Shown here: one piece after another, positions 39,869 through 44,089 of the stretch
How the letters are laid out: every line of letters starts with the position of its first letter
How positions within the stretch are numbered: the first letter of the stretch is position 1
Origin: Desulfurivibrio dismutans
Lineage (GTDB): Bacteria > Desulfobacterota > Desulfobulbia > Desulfobulbales > Desulfurivibrionaceae
NCBI RefSeq assembly: GCF_029210385.1
Contig: NZ_JARGDQ010000002.1
Location: 248,001 to 312,000 of the forward strand
DNA: 64,000 nt
Direction: 5' to 3'
Notes under the pieces: generated by a model
Seen by the model: the letters and a program-made list of their open reading frames with translations, nothing else
The model's database searches: none
Told to the model about the DNA's origin: nothing
Translations under genes and position numbers: made by a program

Positions 39869-40609
39869 ATGAGTAAAAACCAAACATACGGCATCCAGCG
39901 GCGGCCGGGCCGGGTTGTCGGGATACGGCCGGCGGTTGGCTTGCTGTTGATTTTACTGGCCGGCCTTTGGCTGGTGCCGGCTCAAGCTTTGGCGGAATGG
40001 CCGGTTCAACCGGCGTCGGCTGTCGCACCGGCGGAGCCAAAAACGGCAGCCCCGGCGGTGTCCGGCCAAGTGGTGGCGGCGCTGCAGATTGATGAGACGA
40101 GCCGGCTTTATCATCACGTTGCCAGCCTCAGTGAGCAGCTTTTTGCCAGCCTCGCGGAACCGGATATTGAATTCGGGGAACTGCGGGGAGGGGTCATTGT
40201 GTTGTCCTTTGTCGATCAACGAAAGCTGACTCGTACCACCTCTTTTGGCCGTTACCTGGCGGAACAGTTGATGAACAACCTGCAGCAGCGCCGGGTGCCG
40301 GTGGTGGAGTTGCGCCAGAGCCGGGAGGTGCGCATCCAGGAACAGCGCGGAGAATACGGTCTTTCCCGTAATCCCGGCGAGATTCGGGAAACGGTACAGG
40401 CGGCGGCGATGCTTACCGGCACTTACACCGCCACCGCCGAGCAGGTCATCGTCAATGCCAGGATCATTAATAATCGTAACGGCGTGCTGCTGGCCTCCGC
40501 CACCGCCATCATTCGGCGCACCCCGGTGGTGGATGCGATGTTGTCCGATCCGGTCAGTGACGTGGTCATTGACCCCGAGCCCATGTATATGAAACGCCTG
40601 GAATTTTGA
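39869..40609 (+). CDS. FlgO-like exported protein 1
   Basis: This 246-residue protein has a signal peptide (cleaved after ALA near residue 41) and a FlgO domain. The domain shows GGVIVLSFVDQRKLTRTTSFGRYLAEQLMNNLQQRRVPVVELR, then EYGLSRNPGEI and VNARIINNRNGVLLAS. FlgO in Vibrio is an outer-membrane protein of the flagellar H/T ring region. The ATG at 39869 follows GGATGGAG. It is the first of four genes in one direction. Repeat C2 follows directly. Confidence 0.82.
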   Translation: MSKNQTYGIQRRPGRVVGIRPAVGLLLILLAGLWLVPAQALAEWPVQPASAVAPAEPKTAAPAVSGQVVAALQIDETSRLYHHVASLSEQLFASLAEPDIEFGELRGGVIVLSFVDQRKLTRTTSFGRYLAEQLMNNLQQRRVPVVELRQSREVRIQEQRGEYGLSRNPGEIRETVQAAAMLTGTYTATAEQVIVNARIINNRNGVLLASATAIIRRTPVVDAMLSDPVSDVVIDPEPMYMKRLEF

Positions 40610-40708
40610 TGGCTTTGCAAAAAACTGCCAAGCAGGTTGGTCGGTAACGTGAAAACAAGTAGCTACAAAGCGTGCCCAGTCGGCGGCGCGGCTTTTGGCG
40701 GCGCCGAC
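40608..40708 (-). repeat. Intergenic repeat family C, copy C2
   Basis: This 101-bp copy lies within the FlgO-like cluster. On the minus strand it begins with GTCGGCG pairing with CGCCGAC, carries the core CTGGGCACGCTTTGTAGC and ends TTTTTTGCAAAGCCATC. About 70 of 100 positions look alike between C1 and C2 by eye. Its last bases overlap the flgO-1 stop codon. Confidence 0.75.
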
Positions 40709-40747
40709 AATTTTGATGGCGTTATTAAAATTATGGAGACCATGGTA

Positions 40748-41503
40748 ATGACCGAGAAAGTGTCGTCAGTGGCGGGCCGTTGGCTTTGCATTCACGTTCT
40801 GGCCCTGCTGCTGTTGCTGCCAGGTCAGGCTGCCTGTGCCGGTCAGCAGCCGGTGGCGGTTGCTGAAAAATCGGCGTTGCACACAGAACAACAGCCCTCC
40901 TATTTTGTGCCGCAACTGGAGGCCCGGCCGATTGTTGCGGGAACCGTGGAGAACAGAGAACCGCGGGCTTTGTTTCCTTATCGCCCGACAGGCCCGGGAG
41001 GACCGGGACTGGCGACCCTGCTGGGCGAAATAACCCGGGAGGCGGCAGGGAAGGTCTTTTATCAGTTGCGGGAAGATAGCGTGGATCCGTCTGATGTCCG
41101 AGTGGCGGTGGTGGGCGCTGTTCCCCTGGCCGATCTGAAAAGGGAGAGTGAATTTGGTCGGGTGCTGGCCGAATTTATGCTCACCGACCTGGCCGACCGG
41201 GGCGTTAGCGTCACGGAACTTCGCCTGGGCAAAGACATTCACATTGTGCCCCAGACCGGCGAGTTTGTGCTGTCCCGCAACATTGGTGAACTGGCCAGCC
41301 GGCAGCAGGACTTGGACTACGTGGTGCTGAGCACTTACTCAAATACCCGCAGCACGCTGATGTTGCATGGCCGGCTGGTGGGTCTGCAGGATGGCCTGGT
41401 ACGGACCAGTTGGCGGCATAATTTACCGCTTGATCGCGAGCTGCGATGGTTTTTCGGGGAAAGCGAGCAACCGGTTACGGTTTCGATCCGGGGCATGCTG
41501 TAA
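40748..41503 (+). CDS. FlgO-like exported protein 2
   Basis: This protein of about 251 residues has a signal sequence ending LLLLLPGQAACAG, where the Cys could be a weak lipobox. It is homologous to protein 1: VRVAVVGAVPLADLKRESEFGRVLAEFMLTDLADRGVSVTELRLGKDIHI and EFVLSRNIGELA. The start could be ATG 40733, 40742 or 40748; the last gives the best signal peptide. The pair probably arose by duplication. Confidence 0.78.
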   Translation: MTEKVSSVAGRWLCIHVLALLLLLPGQAACAGQQPVAVAEKSALHTEQQPSYFVPQLEARPIVAGTVENREPRALFPYRPTGPGGPGLATLLGEITREAAGKVFYQLREDSVDPSDVRVAVVGAVPLADLKRESEFGRVLAEFMLTDLADRGVSVTELRLGKDIHIVPQTGEFVLSRNIGELASRQQDLDYVVLSTYSNTRSTLMLHGRLVGLQDGLVRTSWRHNLPLDRELRWFFGESEQPVTVSIRGML

Positions 41504-41548
41504 TCGGCCGATGGACTTGATTGCCGGCAGGCGAATGGCGGGAGAAAG

Positions 41549-42076
41549 ATGGTGATGAAAGCAAGATTGGCAATGGTTGGCCATCGGGGATGGTGGAGGG
41601 TTCCGGGACTGTTGCTGGTGCTGTTTTTTGTAGTGCTGCCGCCCTCGGTAATGGCCGAAGAAGAGCAGCAAGCGGCGTCGCCGGCCGGTTATGGCTCTCT
41701 TGCTGAACTGATCCACCTCATCGGCGAGGATGCGGCCGGTGAATTTGTCGATTTTTTTACCGCCGGACCGGTTCAGGTTACCCCTTTTGCTGTGCTGAGC
41801 GAGGGGATGCCCCGGCGTCTTTCGTTTTTGGGAGTAACCCTGGCCGACCAAATGCGGGCGGTGATCAACCGAGTGCCGGAGTCAGCCGCCGCCGGTCAAA
41901 GGCCCCCGGCAAGCCAGCAAATGTTATGGGGGTGGCTGCAGGAAATCGACGGTTGCCTGCGGGTTCACATAAGTGGTCGTAACAGTCACGGCCAGTGGCG
42001 TTCTTACGTGGCCAACGTGGAGATGTCGGCCGCGGTTTACCGGGCGATGCATACCTACGTGGCATACGGGCAGTGA
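41549..42076 (+). CDS. Exported protein, possibly a divergent FlgO-like member 3
   Basis: This 175-residue protein has a signal peptide (cut after VMA near residue 36). The mature part has VQVTPFAVLSEGMPRRLSFLGVTLADQMRAVIN, laid out like the FlgO segment of genes 1 and 2 but with weak identity, and a C-terminal domain with CLRVHISGRNSHGQWRSYVANVEM. The homology is a suggestion only. GGAGAAAG precedes ATG 41549/41555. The next gene starts 25 bp downstream. Confidence 0.65.
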   Translation: MVMKARLAMVGHRGWWRVPGLLLVLFFVVLPPSVMAEEEQQAASPAGYGSLAELIHLIGEDAAGEFVDFFTAGPVQVTPFAVLSEGMPRRLSFLGVTLADQMRAVINRVPESAAAGQRPPASQQMLWGWLQEIDGCLRVHISGRNSHGQWRSYVANVEMSAAVYRAMHTYVAYGQ

Positions 42077-42100
42077 TTAACACAGACGGATGGATGGATC

Positions 42101-44089
42101 ATGGCCAATGACAAGGATGTAAATGATTTTGGCGATATCGACGACTGGCTGGCCGATCTGGATGACGATGAACAGGGCCAGACCGCTTCGGTAGCCACCG
42201 CCGAATTGGATAGCGACGAACTGGATCAGTCGGATATCGATCAGCTTTTGAGCGGTGGCGGGACCGAAGATGGCGGCGCCCAGGCGGATTCGGTGGAACT
42301 GGACCAGAATGATATCGATTCGCTGTTTGGTGATGCCCCCCAGGAGGTGCCCGAACCGACGCCCGTAGCCGAGCAGGAAGCGGGGGCCGGAGAGGGCGGC
42401 GATGATTTTGAGGATCTGTTTGCCGGGGACTCCGGGGAGGATTCGGCCGAGCAACCGGAGGCCGGTTCACCCGAACTCGCCGAGTCTCCCGAAGCCTCCG
42501 AATCGTTGGAAGCCCCGCCGGCCACCGAGGAAGAAGCCAGTGTCGAGGTGGGCACCGAAGAGGTGGCGGGTGACGATGAGTTGCCGGTGGCGGAGGAGCA
42601 ACCTGCCGTTGCCGAGCGTGAAGCGTCGACCGGTGGAGGCGGGGAGGAGGAAAAGGATCCCTTTGCCTTCGATGACGGCGAATTTGATATCGAGGGTTTT
42701 GACTTCGATGATGACATCCCCGATATCCCCGACGAAAATATGCTGGAGTCATCCCGGGAAGGCAAGCAGGAGACGGCGGATGAAGATATTTTCGCCGATA
42801 CTCCCAGTGCCGCCGAACCGGCGAGTGAAGACGAAGAAGAGGCAACGGTTGGAGAGAACTGGAAAAAAGGTTTTGTCGCCTGGTTGCCTGCCTCTTTCGA
42901 TAAAAGCGCCATCAACAAAAGCACCATCGGCGCCTCGCTGTTCTCTCTTTTGGTGTTGATTGGTGCCGCCTACTTCCTGCTGGGACGGGACGGTGAACCG
43001 GAGTTGGCGATTCCGCCTCAGGTGCGGGAAGAACTGGTGGAGGCCTTGGAGCCGGAGCCCACGGACTTGGCGGAACCCCCGGCGCCGATAATGCCGCCGG
43101 TGGCCAGGGATGAGCGCTTTCGGATGGATCAACCCGGCGCCGCCGTTTCCATGCAACTGCGGGCGGAGGCCCCCGATGGCGGTCCGCTGGCCTACGAGAT
43201 TGTCACGCCTCCCCGCTATGGCCGTCTTTCCGGGGAGCCGCCCCGGGTGACCTATCTGCCCAACCCGGACTTCCCCGGGGAAGACCGTTTTGTATTCCGG
43301 GCCACCGATGGCCGCCAGGCCAGTGAGCCGGCTCGGGTGGCCATTGTCGGCCCCAGCCTGCGGGCGGCCGACAAGGAGGCGCCGCTGGAGGAAGTGGAGG
43401 AGGTCTTGACCATGACGCCGGAGCAACCTCTGATCAGAGTGCGGGATCTGGTGATGACCTCGCGCAGTACCGAGCCGCTGAAGATCGACTGGGCCGCTGT
43501 CTGGCGCCGGGATAATACGACCCCCTTTACCGGCGTGCGGGTGGAGATTATGCAACAGGATCTCCAGGAGGGGCGTCTGCGCCGGCTGGATCCGGCCACC
43601 CATATTTATGAGCCCGACCCCTACTTCCAGGGGGAAGAAAGTCTGGTCTACCGCTTCCACTACGCCGGTCAGCGCTCCAAGCCCCGCCGCCTGACTCTAC
43701 GGGTAGAGTCGGGCCATCCGCCGCCCAGTGTCAGGCTCGGCCCGTTGGCAGCAACTTATCCGCCGGGGGAGACAGTGCTCCTCGATGCCAGGGAAACCCT
43801 GGCCGTGCGGCCGCAGGAGTTGCGTTTTGAGTGGCGTCAGTTGAGCGGTTCGGCGGTACACCTGGAGTCATTGGCGGATAACGACGCGTTGGTGCGCTTT
43901 GTGGCGCCCTCGCCTTTTGCCCACGTCGCCTCACCCAAGGTCGTTCTGCAGGTGACGGCCATGGACCCCGCCGGGCGGCGGGACACGAAAACGGTGGAGA
44001 TCAACACCCCGTCGCGGCGGCAGAGCGCCCTGTGGCGGGGGGAAGAGGATGCCGGTCAGCAGCGCAACAGCCCATTGTGGGGTTTTTAA
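42101..44089 (+). CDS. Bitopic protein: FliM-like acidic peptides, one TM helix, periplasmic Ig-like domains
   Basis: This 662-residue protein has a strongly acidic cytoplasmic region (1-255) with four DID-type peptides: GDIDDWLADL (11), SDIDQLLSGG (44), NDIDSLFGDA (70) and DDFEDLFAGD (101). They resemble the LSQxEIDALL peptide at the FliM N-terminus. One TM helix (about 276-294) follows. The periplasmic part has two cadherin/tandem-95-like units (YLPNPDFPGEDRFVFRATDG near 385; YEPDPYFQGEESLVYRF near 503) and a PKD-like domain (about 541-640). It is last in the FlgO-like cluster. No family match is known to me. Confidence 0.78.
   Translation: MANDKDVNDFGDIDDWLADLDDDEQGQTASVATAELDSDELDQSDIDQLLSGGGTEDGGAQADSVELDQNDIDSLFGDAPQEVPEPTPVAEQEAGAGEGGDDFEDLFAGDSGEDSAEQPEAGSPELAESPEASESLEAPPATEEEASVEVGTEEVAGDDELPVAEEQPAVAEREASTGGGGEEEKDPFAFDDGEFDIEGFDFDDDIPDIPDENMLESSREGKQETADEDIFADTPSAAEPASEDEEEATVGENWKKGFVAWLPASFDKSAINKSTIGASLFSLLVLIGAAYFLLGRDGEPELAIPPQVREELVEALEPEPTDLAEPPAPIMPPVARDERFRMDQPGAAVSMQLRAEAPDGGPLAYEIVTPPRYGRLSGEPPRVTYLPNPDFPGEDRFVFRATDGRQASEPARVAIVGPSLRAADKEAPLEEVEEVLTMTPEQPLIRVRDLVMTSRSTEPLKIDWAAVWRRDNTTPFTGVRVEIMQQDLQEGRLRRLDPATHIYEPDPYFQGEESLVYRFHYAGQRSKPRRLTLRVESGHPPPSVRLGPLAATYPPGETVLLDARETLAVRPQELRFEWRQLSGSAVHLESLADNDALVRFVAPSPFAHVASPKVVLQVTAMDPAGRRDTKTVEINTPSRRQSALWRGEEDAGQQRNSPLWGF

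Follow-up and report, generated by a model that had tools for sequence, protein, structure and literature searches.

A conserved four-gene module tied to one flagellar type in the Desulfobulbales encodes a membrane protein that displays FliM-like peptides

Polar landmark proteins such as HubP, FimV and TspA are bitopic, have an acidic cytoplasmic region and are anchored in the envelope; in HubP and FimV a LysM domain lies in the periplasm and the cytoplasmic region is C-terminal. In the accepted picture of chemotaxis, the target of phosphorylated CheY (CheY~P) is the flagellar C-ring, reached first through one FliM peptide. According to the available parts of the papers cited, the motif LSQxEIDALL mediates the interaction of FliM with CheY~P (PMC6700473, PMC9126983), and FlgO is a component of the Vibrio H-ring (PMC7990780, PMC6375700). 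Here we describe four consecutive genes, F1, F2, X3 and P4, all on the plus strand of a 64,000-nucleotide stretch of Desulfurivibrio dismutans (order Desulfobulbales). This stretch, which we call the window, belongs to contig C12 of genome G000 (2.84 Mb). The four genes are a real, conserved module tied to one flagellar type, and the membrane protein P4 displays FliM-like peptides. Our searches of the open-licence literature found no description of the four-gene family.

Like the landmark proteins, P4 is bitopic and has an acidic region; unlike them, its acidic tail is N-terminal, its folded domains come after the helix, and it gave no LysM match at an E-value of up to 1. With the CheY-binding peptide of FliM, P4 shares the core L-x-Q-x-x-[IV]-D-A-L-L-x-G (FliM of the same genome begins MAEQILSQDEVDALLKG, and its peptide is ILSQDEVDALLKG), but the copies in P4 are repeated and sit on a bitopic protein with immunoglobulin-like (Ig-like) domains. 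The module resembles the FlgO/FlgP/FlgT H-ring of Vibrio in that F1 and F2 belong to PF17680 and the operon accompanies a flagellar type. It differs in that the flagellum-linked FlgO pair of the order (fA and fB) is encoded at a locus separate from the operon; moreover, the available portions of PMC7990780 and PMC6375700 name no bitopic protein with FliM-like peptides as a part of the H-ring.

P4 was scored as present at an E-value of 1e-20 or better, which gave 69 of the 146 genomes of the order; 15 genomes with weaker matches only, those listed falling mostly on the Big_9 region, were counted as negative. Besides the window's own locus, 57 of the 68 P4 genomes were fetched with wide flanks, and the remaining 11 were left out. 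A sequence-only reading of the window had noted that the four genes follow one another, and it had been fixed beforehand that a failure of this order to recur would speak decisively against a system. The order F1-F2-X3-P4 was found on one strand in 52 of the 57 loci. Four of the other five are cut by contig ends, and one (L073, in G018) has no detectable X3. G018 belongs to the same genus, measures 1.7 Mb, is listed as 100% complete and retains F1, F2 and P4. Between the genes, the median distances are 58.5, 16.5 and 35.5 bp. When P4 itself was used for a scan, no match came from beyond the order, and the X3 profile matched in 5 of 395 genomes of the phylum, all five within the same order. Two peptide patterns led to 58 loci in genomes titled Desulfobulbaceae, Desulfurivibrio(naceae), Desulfobia, Desulfobacterales, Deltaproteobacteria or Proteobacteria/Pseudomonadota; other phyla were covered by the P4 scan and these two patterns only.

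The tail of P4 contains the peptides ELDQSDIDQLLSG and ELDQNDIDSLFGD, as the sequence-only reading had noticed. To ask how general they are is to count them in the 58 P4 proteins at hand, the window's and 57 others: the pattern Q..[IVLM]D.[LMI][LFMI] occurs 252 times in their tails, whereas 200 shuffles gave 0.285 on average and never more than 3, and all 252 occurrences, of the type ELDQ-x-x-IDALLGG, precede the transmembrane (TM) helix. Counted from the Q, L is found at -2 in 71% and D at -1 in 77% (FliM has S there), I at +3 in 89%, L at +6 in 98%, and L or F at +7 in 62% and 36%. The motif is present in 56 of the 58 proteins, the window's included, with eight as the highest number per protein; absence of the peptides from homologues, which would likewise have spoken against the sequence-only reading, is thus not what is seen. 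The two motif-free proteins, L062 (acid fraction before the TM helix 0.05) and L065 (an open reading frame, ORF, of 439 residues), were kept in the set. Of 77 pairs of related tails, which share at least 50% identity across 150 columns and are not independent, 76 showed stronger conservation in the motifs than in the linkers, and between the tails of the window and L072 the motifs were 91% conserved, as against 62% for the rest. The shuffles, together with the conservation over the linkers, lead us to reject chance or composition as the source of the motifs. The bare core is nevertheless common: the DNA pattern for Q..[IV]D.L[LF] was met at 38 places genome-wide, against 20 for a reversed-pattern control. 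Thirty of the 38 places were read by eye, and only two, both in P4, had the full motif in an acidic tail; one place outside those 30 (C31:124235) coincides by coordinate with the FliM N-terminus. A QDDIDALL in a 460-residue ORF, which we take to be DnaB, was set aside.

There are two FliM types within the order. The high class (67 genomes), delimited by our own cut, comprises matches of at least 150 bits plus G110 and G057 (gene in two pieces). Its tails were read in three sets (14 of 30 loci in one, 5 in another and 19 in the third), and all those read have LSQDEVDALL, except L245 with LTQDEVDALL. A lower-scoring FliM is found in 41 genomes, and the nine tails read have ILxKxEIxxLL or a close variant, with A or S replacing D. 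P4 was detected in 64 of the 67 high-class genomes, in none of the 41 with the other type, and in 5 of the 38 without FliM. A second marker of the LSQDEVDALL-type flagellum, a protein that we call POST, is found in 70 of the 146 genomes. P4 is thereby present in 68 of the 71 genomes with either marker and in 1 of the 75 with neither (Fisher p 9e-37, a statistic that ignores kinship); the single genome with P4 but no marker, G077, is 73% complete. The association is also seen at closer range: in family f15, G039 has P4, FliM and POST, and the four others listed (G021, G031, G047 and G054) have none of them; in genus g1, none of the three is found in G106 or G114, which are only 77-79% complete. 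The occurrence of two FliM types suggests that the flagellar switch, or the system as a whole, was replaced between families. The motility link first proposed for the genes is supported by this co-occurrence with one flagellar type, which is partly bound to lineage; a flagellum-linked module is a better label than an envelope system.

POST (L201:100-1005; G000:C31:135399-136304) is a bitopic protein of 301 residues with an acidic tail of the DWGxDWESAF type and no Pfam match. Its gene lies directly after that of the flagellar CheY, a position where CheZ might be expected. CheY and POST follow FliA in 17 of the 18 LSQDEVDALL-type clusters fetched, and FlhF and FlhG are encoded in the same cluster as FliM. 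The CheY of the window's genome matches a solved CheY with an E-value of 8.4e-43 and has the conserved YIVKPFTA. Two clusters of the other type, L250 and L251, have FlhF, FlhG and FliA, with no match to CheY or POST in the 20 kb fetched.

A weight matrix built from the P4 motifs alone was scanned over 2534 ORFs from the window and the flagellar clusters. The window's P4 came first by construction (40.6 bits), followed by one FliM at 15.9, three FlhG segments at 14.6 and 18 FliM N-termini at 14.5 bits. The matrix thus retrieved the FliM N-terminus in 19 of 19 LSQDEVDALL-type clusters, with the next ORF below 9, a result to be taken as a ranking and not as a probability, since flagellar loci are over-represented among the ORFs scanned. 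The 40 best matches did not include FliM from either of the two other-type clusters.

The two genes that open the operon code for FlgO-domain proteins, as claimed from the sequence: F1 matches PF17680 with 113 bits (E-value 1.2e-32) and F2 with 86.7 bits, against a cut-off of 22.6 bits. By eye, both have an export signal. No lipobox cysteine was seen in F1 by eye; F2 has a cysteine where the signal ends, but whether it belongs to a lipobox is ambiguous, and its homologues are mixed, some having a lipobox by eye. By hand count, 48 of the 69 P4 genomes have four copies of FlgO, and 33 of the 41 other-type genomes have one. The four of the window's genome are two in the operon and two linked to the flagellum, in a locus, fA-fB-fC, about 15 kb from FliM. 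This locus (L092:8611-10877) codes for a pair of FlgO proteins and for a third, lipoprotein-like one whose match to LpoB is weak and below cut-off (E-value 0.024); all three labels are present in 19 of 21 loci read, and in the other two a second fB-like protein replaces fA. In a FlgO tree, for which the tool warned of long branches meeting, F1 formed one clade (Shimodaira-Hasegawa-like approximate likelihood ratio test support 99), grouped with fA at 86, and F2 formed one clade (99) that joined the other-type FlgO at a weak support of 76. With F1 near fA but F2 weakly placed with the other-type FlgO, the tree does not establish that F1-F2-X3 arose by a simple duplication of fA-fB-fC. The gap between F1 and F2 (window 40608-40732) holds an interspersed repeat of about 100 bases. 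It has 43 matches in the genome, itself included, at 74-100% identity; among them are copies adjacent to fA (C31:108922) and upstream of FliL-FliM (C31:123338).

X3 had been taken for a possible divergent relative of FlgO; the predicted fold may point that way, but the sequence does not. The window's X3 has no Pfam match, and none of the 55 members of its family matches FlgO or LpoB in Pfam at an E-value of up to 1. The AlphaFold2 model (mean predicted local distance difference test, pLDDT, 82.2) has a predicted fold like that of LpoB and the N-terminal domain of TolB, closest to LpoB. The best Foldseek match was LpoB 4q6l at an E-value of 8e-4, but with template modelling scores (TM-scores) of 0.35/0.43 and a root-mean-square deviation (rmsd) of 9.3; the best VIA match was LpoB 4q6z with a Z-score of 7.6, under 8, and an rmsd of 3.5 over 95 aligned residues. 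Lower matches were to TolB (Z 5.0), FlgT (Z 4.7) and the LPHT ring (Z 4.2). A common origin of X3 with F2 (hhalign probability 26.4, E-value 7e-4) or with the flagellum-linked fC and fB (2.5 and 2.3) was unconvincing.

P4 has a single strongly hydrophobic stretch. Both the hydropathy scan and the model agree with the bitopic protein and one TM helix that had been claimed. The part before the helix is acidic (32% D+E) and would be cytoplasmic, so that the peptides most likely lie inside the cell. The part after the helix is predicted by AlphaFold2 to form three beta-sandwich domains (mean pLDDT 86.5, predicted TM-score 0.52), and cadherins make up most of its Foldseek matches, although TM-scores are low when the whole multi-domain chain is compared. 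Of the Ig-like and PKD-like domains proposed earlier, the first is found as Big_9; the match to PKD, over residues 554-635, reaches 13 bits, below the cut-off of 27 bits, in a place where a beta domain is predicted.

Table 1. Features of the F1-F2-X3-P4 operon, in window coordinates
Feature	Coordinates	Strand	Description
F1	39869..40609	+	246 aa, FlgO-domain protein
F2	40733..41503	+	256 aa, FlgO-domain protein
X3	41549..42076	+	175 aa, hydrophobic N-terminus, C-terminal half conserved
P4	42101..44089	+	662 aa, bitopic: acidic tail, one TM helix, three predicted beta-sandwich domains
DIDDWLADLD tail motif	42134..42163	+	P4 residues 12-21
FliM-like peptide 1	42218..42256	+	ELDQSDIDQLLSG, P4 residues 40-52
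FliM-like peptide 2	42296..42334	+	ELDQNDIDSLFGD, P4 residues 66-78
P4 TM helix (predicted)	42926..42982	+	residues 276-294, hydropathy mean 2.28; the helix starts the model
Big_9 Ig-like domain of P4	43094..43345	+	residues 332-415, PF17963, 52.3 bits
Second and third predicted beta-sandwich domains of P4	43448..44005	+	about residues 450-536 and 544-635; AlphaFold2 ten-residue blocks with pLDDT 83-98

The tail of P4 has a further motif, DIDDWLADLD, which lacks the Q and is therefore distinct from the FliM-like peptides; a [DEN][DEN]W motif is found within the first 60 residues of 54 of the 58 P4 proteins. We considered a FliN-like DDW motif shared by P4, FliN (DDWxxAL) and POST, but a matrix from the P4 motif, scanned over the same 2534 ORFs, failed to single out FliN: the first FliN proteins came at ranks 10 (L234) and 27 (L244), mixed with unrelated ORFs, and POST ranked second and third in two clusters and 18-19 in its own genome. 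The likeness of DIDDWLADLD to FliN is only suggestive, a hint and not evidence.

From these sequence features we tentatively propose that the four genes may form a flagellum-linked, trans-envelope module, in which the P4 tail would dock CheY~P near the motor. The operon would then serve as an accessory to the order's CheY-controlled, FlhF/FlhG-type flagellum. P4 would be seated in the inner membrane, and its acidic tail, with up to eight detected mimics of the FliM N-terminus, would dock phosphorylated CheY and so concentrate or buffer it near the motor. The periplasmic Ig-like domains would hold P4 through the FlgO-like F1, F2 and X3, a contact that we infer because the genes share an operon, and the assembly would be sited within or close to either a periplasmic ring or the cell pole. 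The topology of P4, its binding of CheY, its location at the motor and any effect on switching are likewise put forward as parts of a model. As to the tail itself, docking of CheY~P would be the likeliest mechanism, if one that we place somewhat short of probable. It also seems conceivable, albeit decidedly improbable, that the array provides a second output of CheY~P beside the C-ring, reading the chemotaxis signal and relaying it via the periplasmic domains to the FlgO-like ring proteins; the peptide count per protein (at most eight detected) would then fix how much CheY~P is captured and so tune the gain of the switch.

Several observations weigh against a CheY-docking module tied to the flagellum. 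Three genomes, G006, G010 and G016, have a marker but no P4, and the 41 genomes with the other FliM type are confined to families f4, f11 and f12, so that the co-occurrence is partly lineage-bound. The eighteenth LSQDEVDALL-type cluster (L245, in G018) shows only FliM and FliN in the 12 kb to the contig end; POST of G018 is elsewhere on the same contig (C3:21119), which points to a split or a rearrangement of this cluster. Next to the operon, neither flagellar nor che genes were seen. Outside the order, in G159, a protein of 430 residues (L287:772-2061) with no TM helix by eye has four QDDLDALLGEL repeats and two variants (a Pfam match of this repeat to Pup, at 36.2 bits, looks spurious). Its gene adjoins others that we take to be valS and the gene for endonuclease IV; an array beside such non-flagellar-looking genes means that the array alone is no proof of a flagellar role. 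In the matrix scan, an FlhG segment, DLNLANIDVLLG (DLNLANIDVLLGL), outscores FliM in three clusters with its 14.6 bits, so that a high matrix score does not by itself single out FliM. Finally, the available part of a review states that FlhG acts on FliM/N via the N-terminus of FliM and that, in monotrichous bacteria, FlhG and FliM interact (PMC12826062), which keeps FlhG a serious rival to CheY.

The array of G159, in a different kind of protein, and the scoring of FlhG segments both speak for another reading, in which the repeats serve generally to attach a different helix-binding partner (for example a polar scaffold or a further receiver domain) and resemble FliM by convergence on a common amphipathic peptide. 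We find this conceivable but doubtful: Q..[IV]D.LL, preceded by L at -2 and frequently followed by G, agrees with FliM at each position, and P4 goes with FliM of the LSQDEVDALL type and not with the type that has A or S for D.

Possibly, the peptides dock FlhG instead, and P4 is a membrane landmark or decoy that recruits this flagellar-number ATPase; the FlgO-like proteins would mark the site from outside, and the role would be in flagellar assembly or placement. The action of FlhG through the FliM N-terminus and the sharing of a cluster by FlhF, FlhG and FliM agree with this. Conversely, L250 and L251 have FlhF and FlhG without a CheY match in the 20 kb fetched, and P4 is absent from all 41 other-type genomes; this favours CheY, on two clusters only, and their ILxKxEIxxLL-type FliM tail could still bind FlhG. 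On balance we regard docking of FlhG as unlikely.

That the operon is an envelope or adhesion module merely co-travelling with the flagellum in the same lineages, with no tie to it, we hold to be very improbable. In its favour, the correlation is partly phylogenetic, the domains of P4 are cadherin/Ig-like, and the neighbours are a carbon-nitrogen hydrolase gene upstream and rpe downstream (convergent and at most 800 bp away in 33 of the 57 loci), beyond which lies what is presumably an M16 peptidase gene. Against it, the tail motifs match FliM, and P4, FliM and POST are present or absent together in the genomes named above for f15 and, given their incompleteness with less weight, for g1.

If the docking of CheY~P, or alternatively of FlhG, is true, P4 would be a second docking site for that protein, placed at the envelope. 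With P4, one could ask by genetics whether there is, outside the C-ring, a means to buffer, localise or relay signalling or the placement of flagella.

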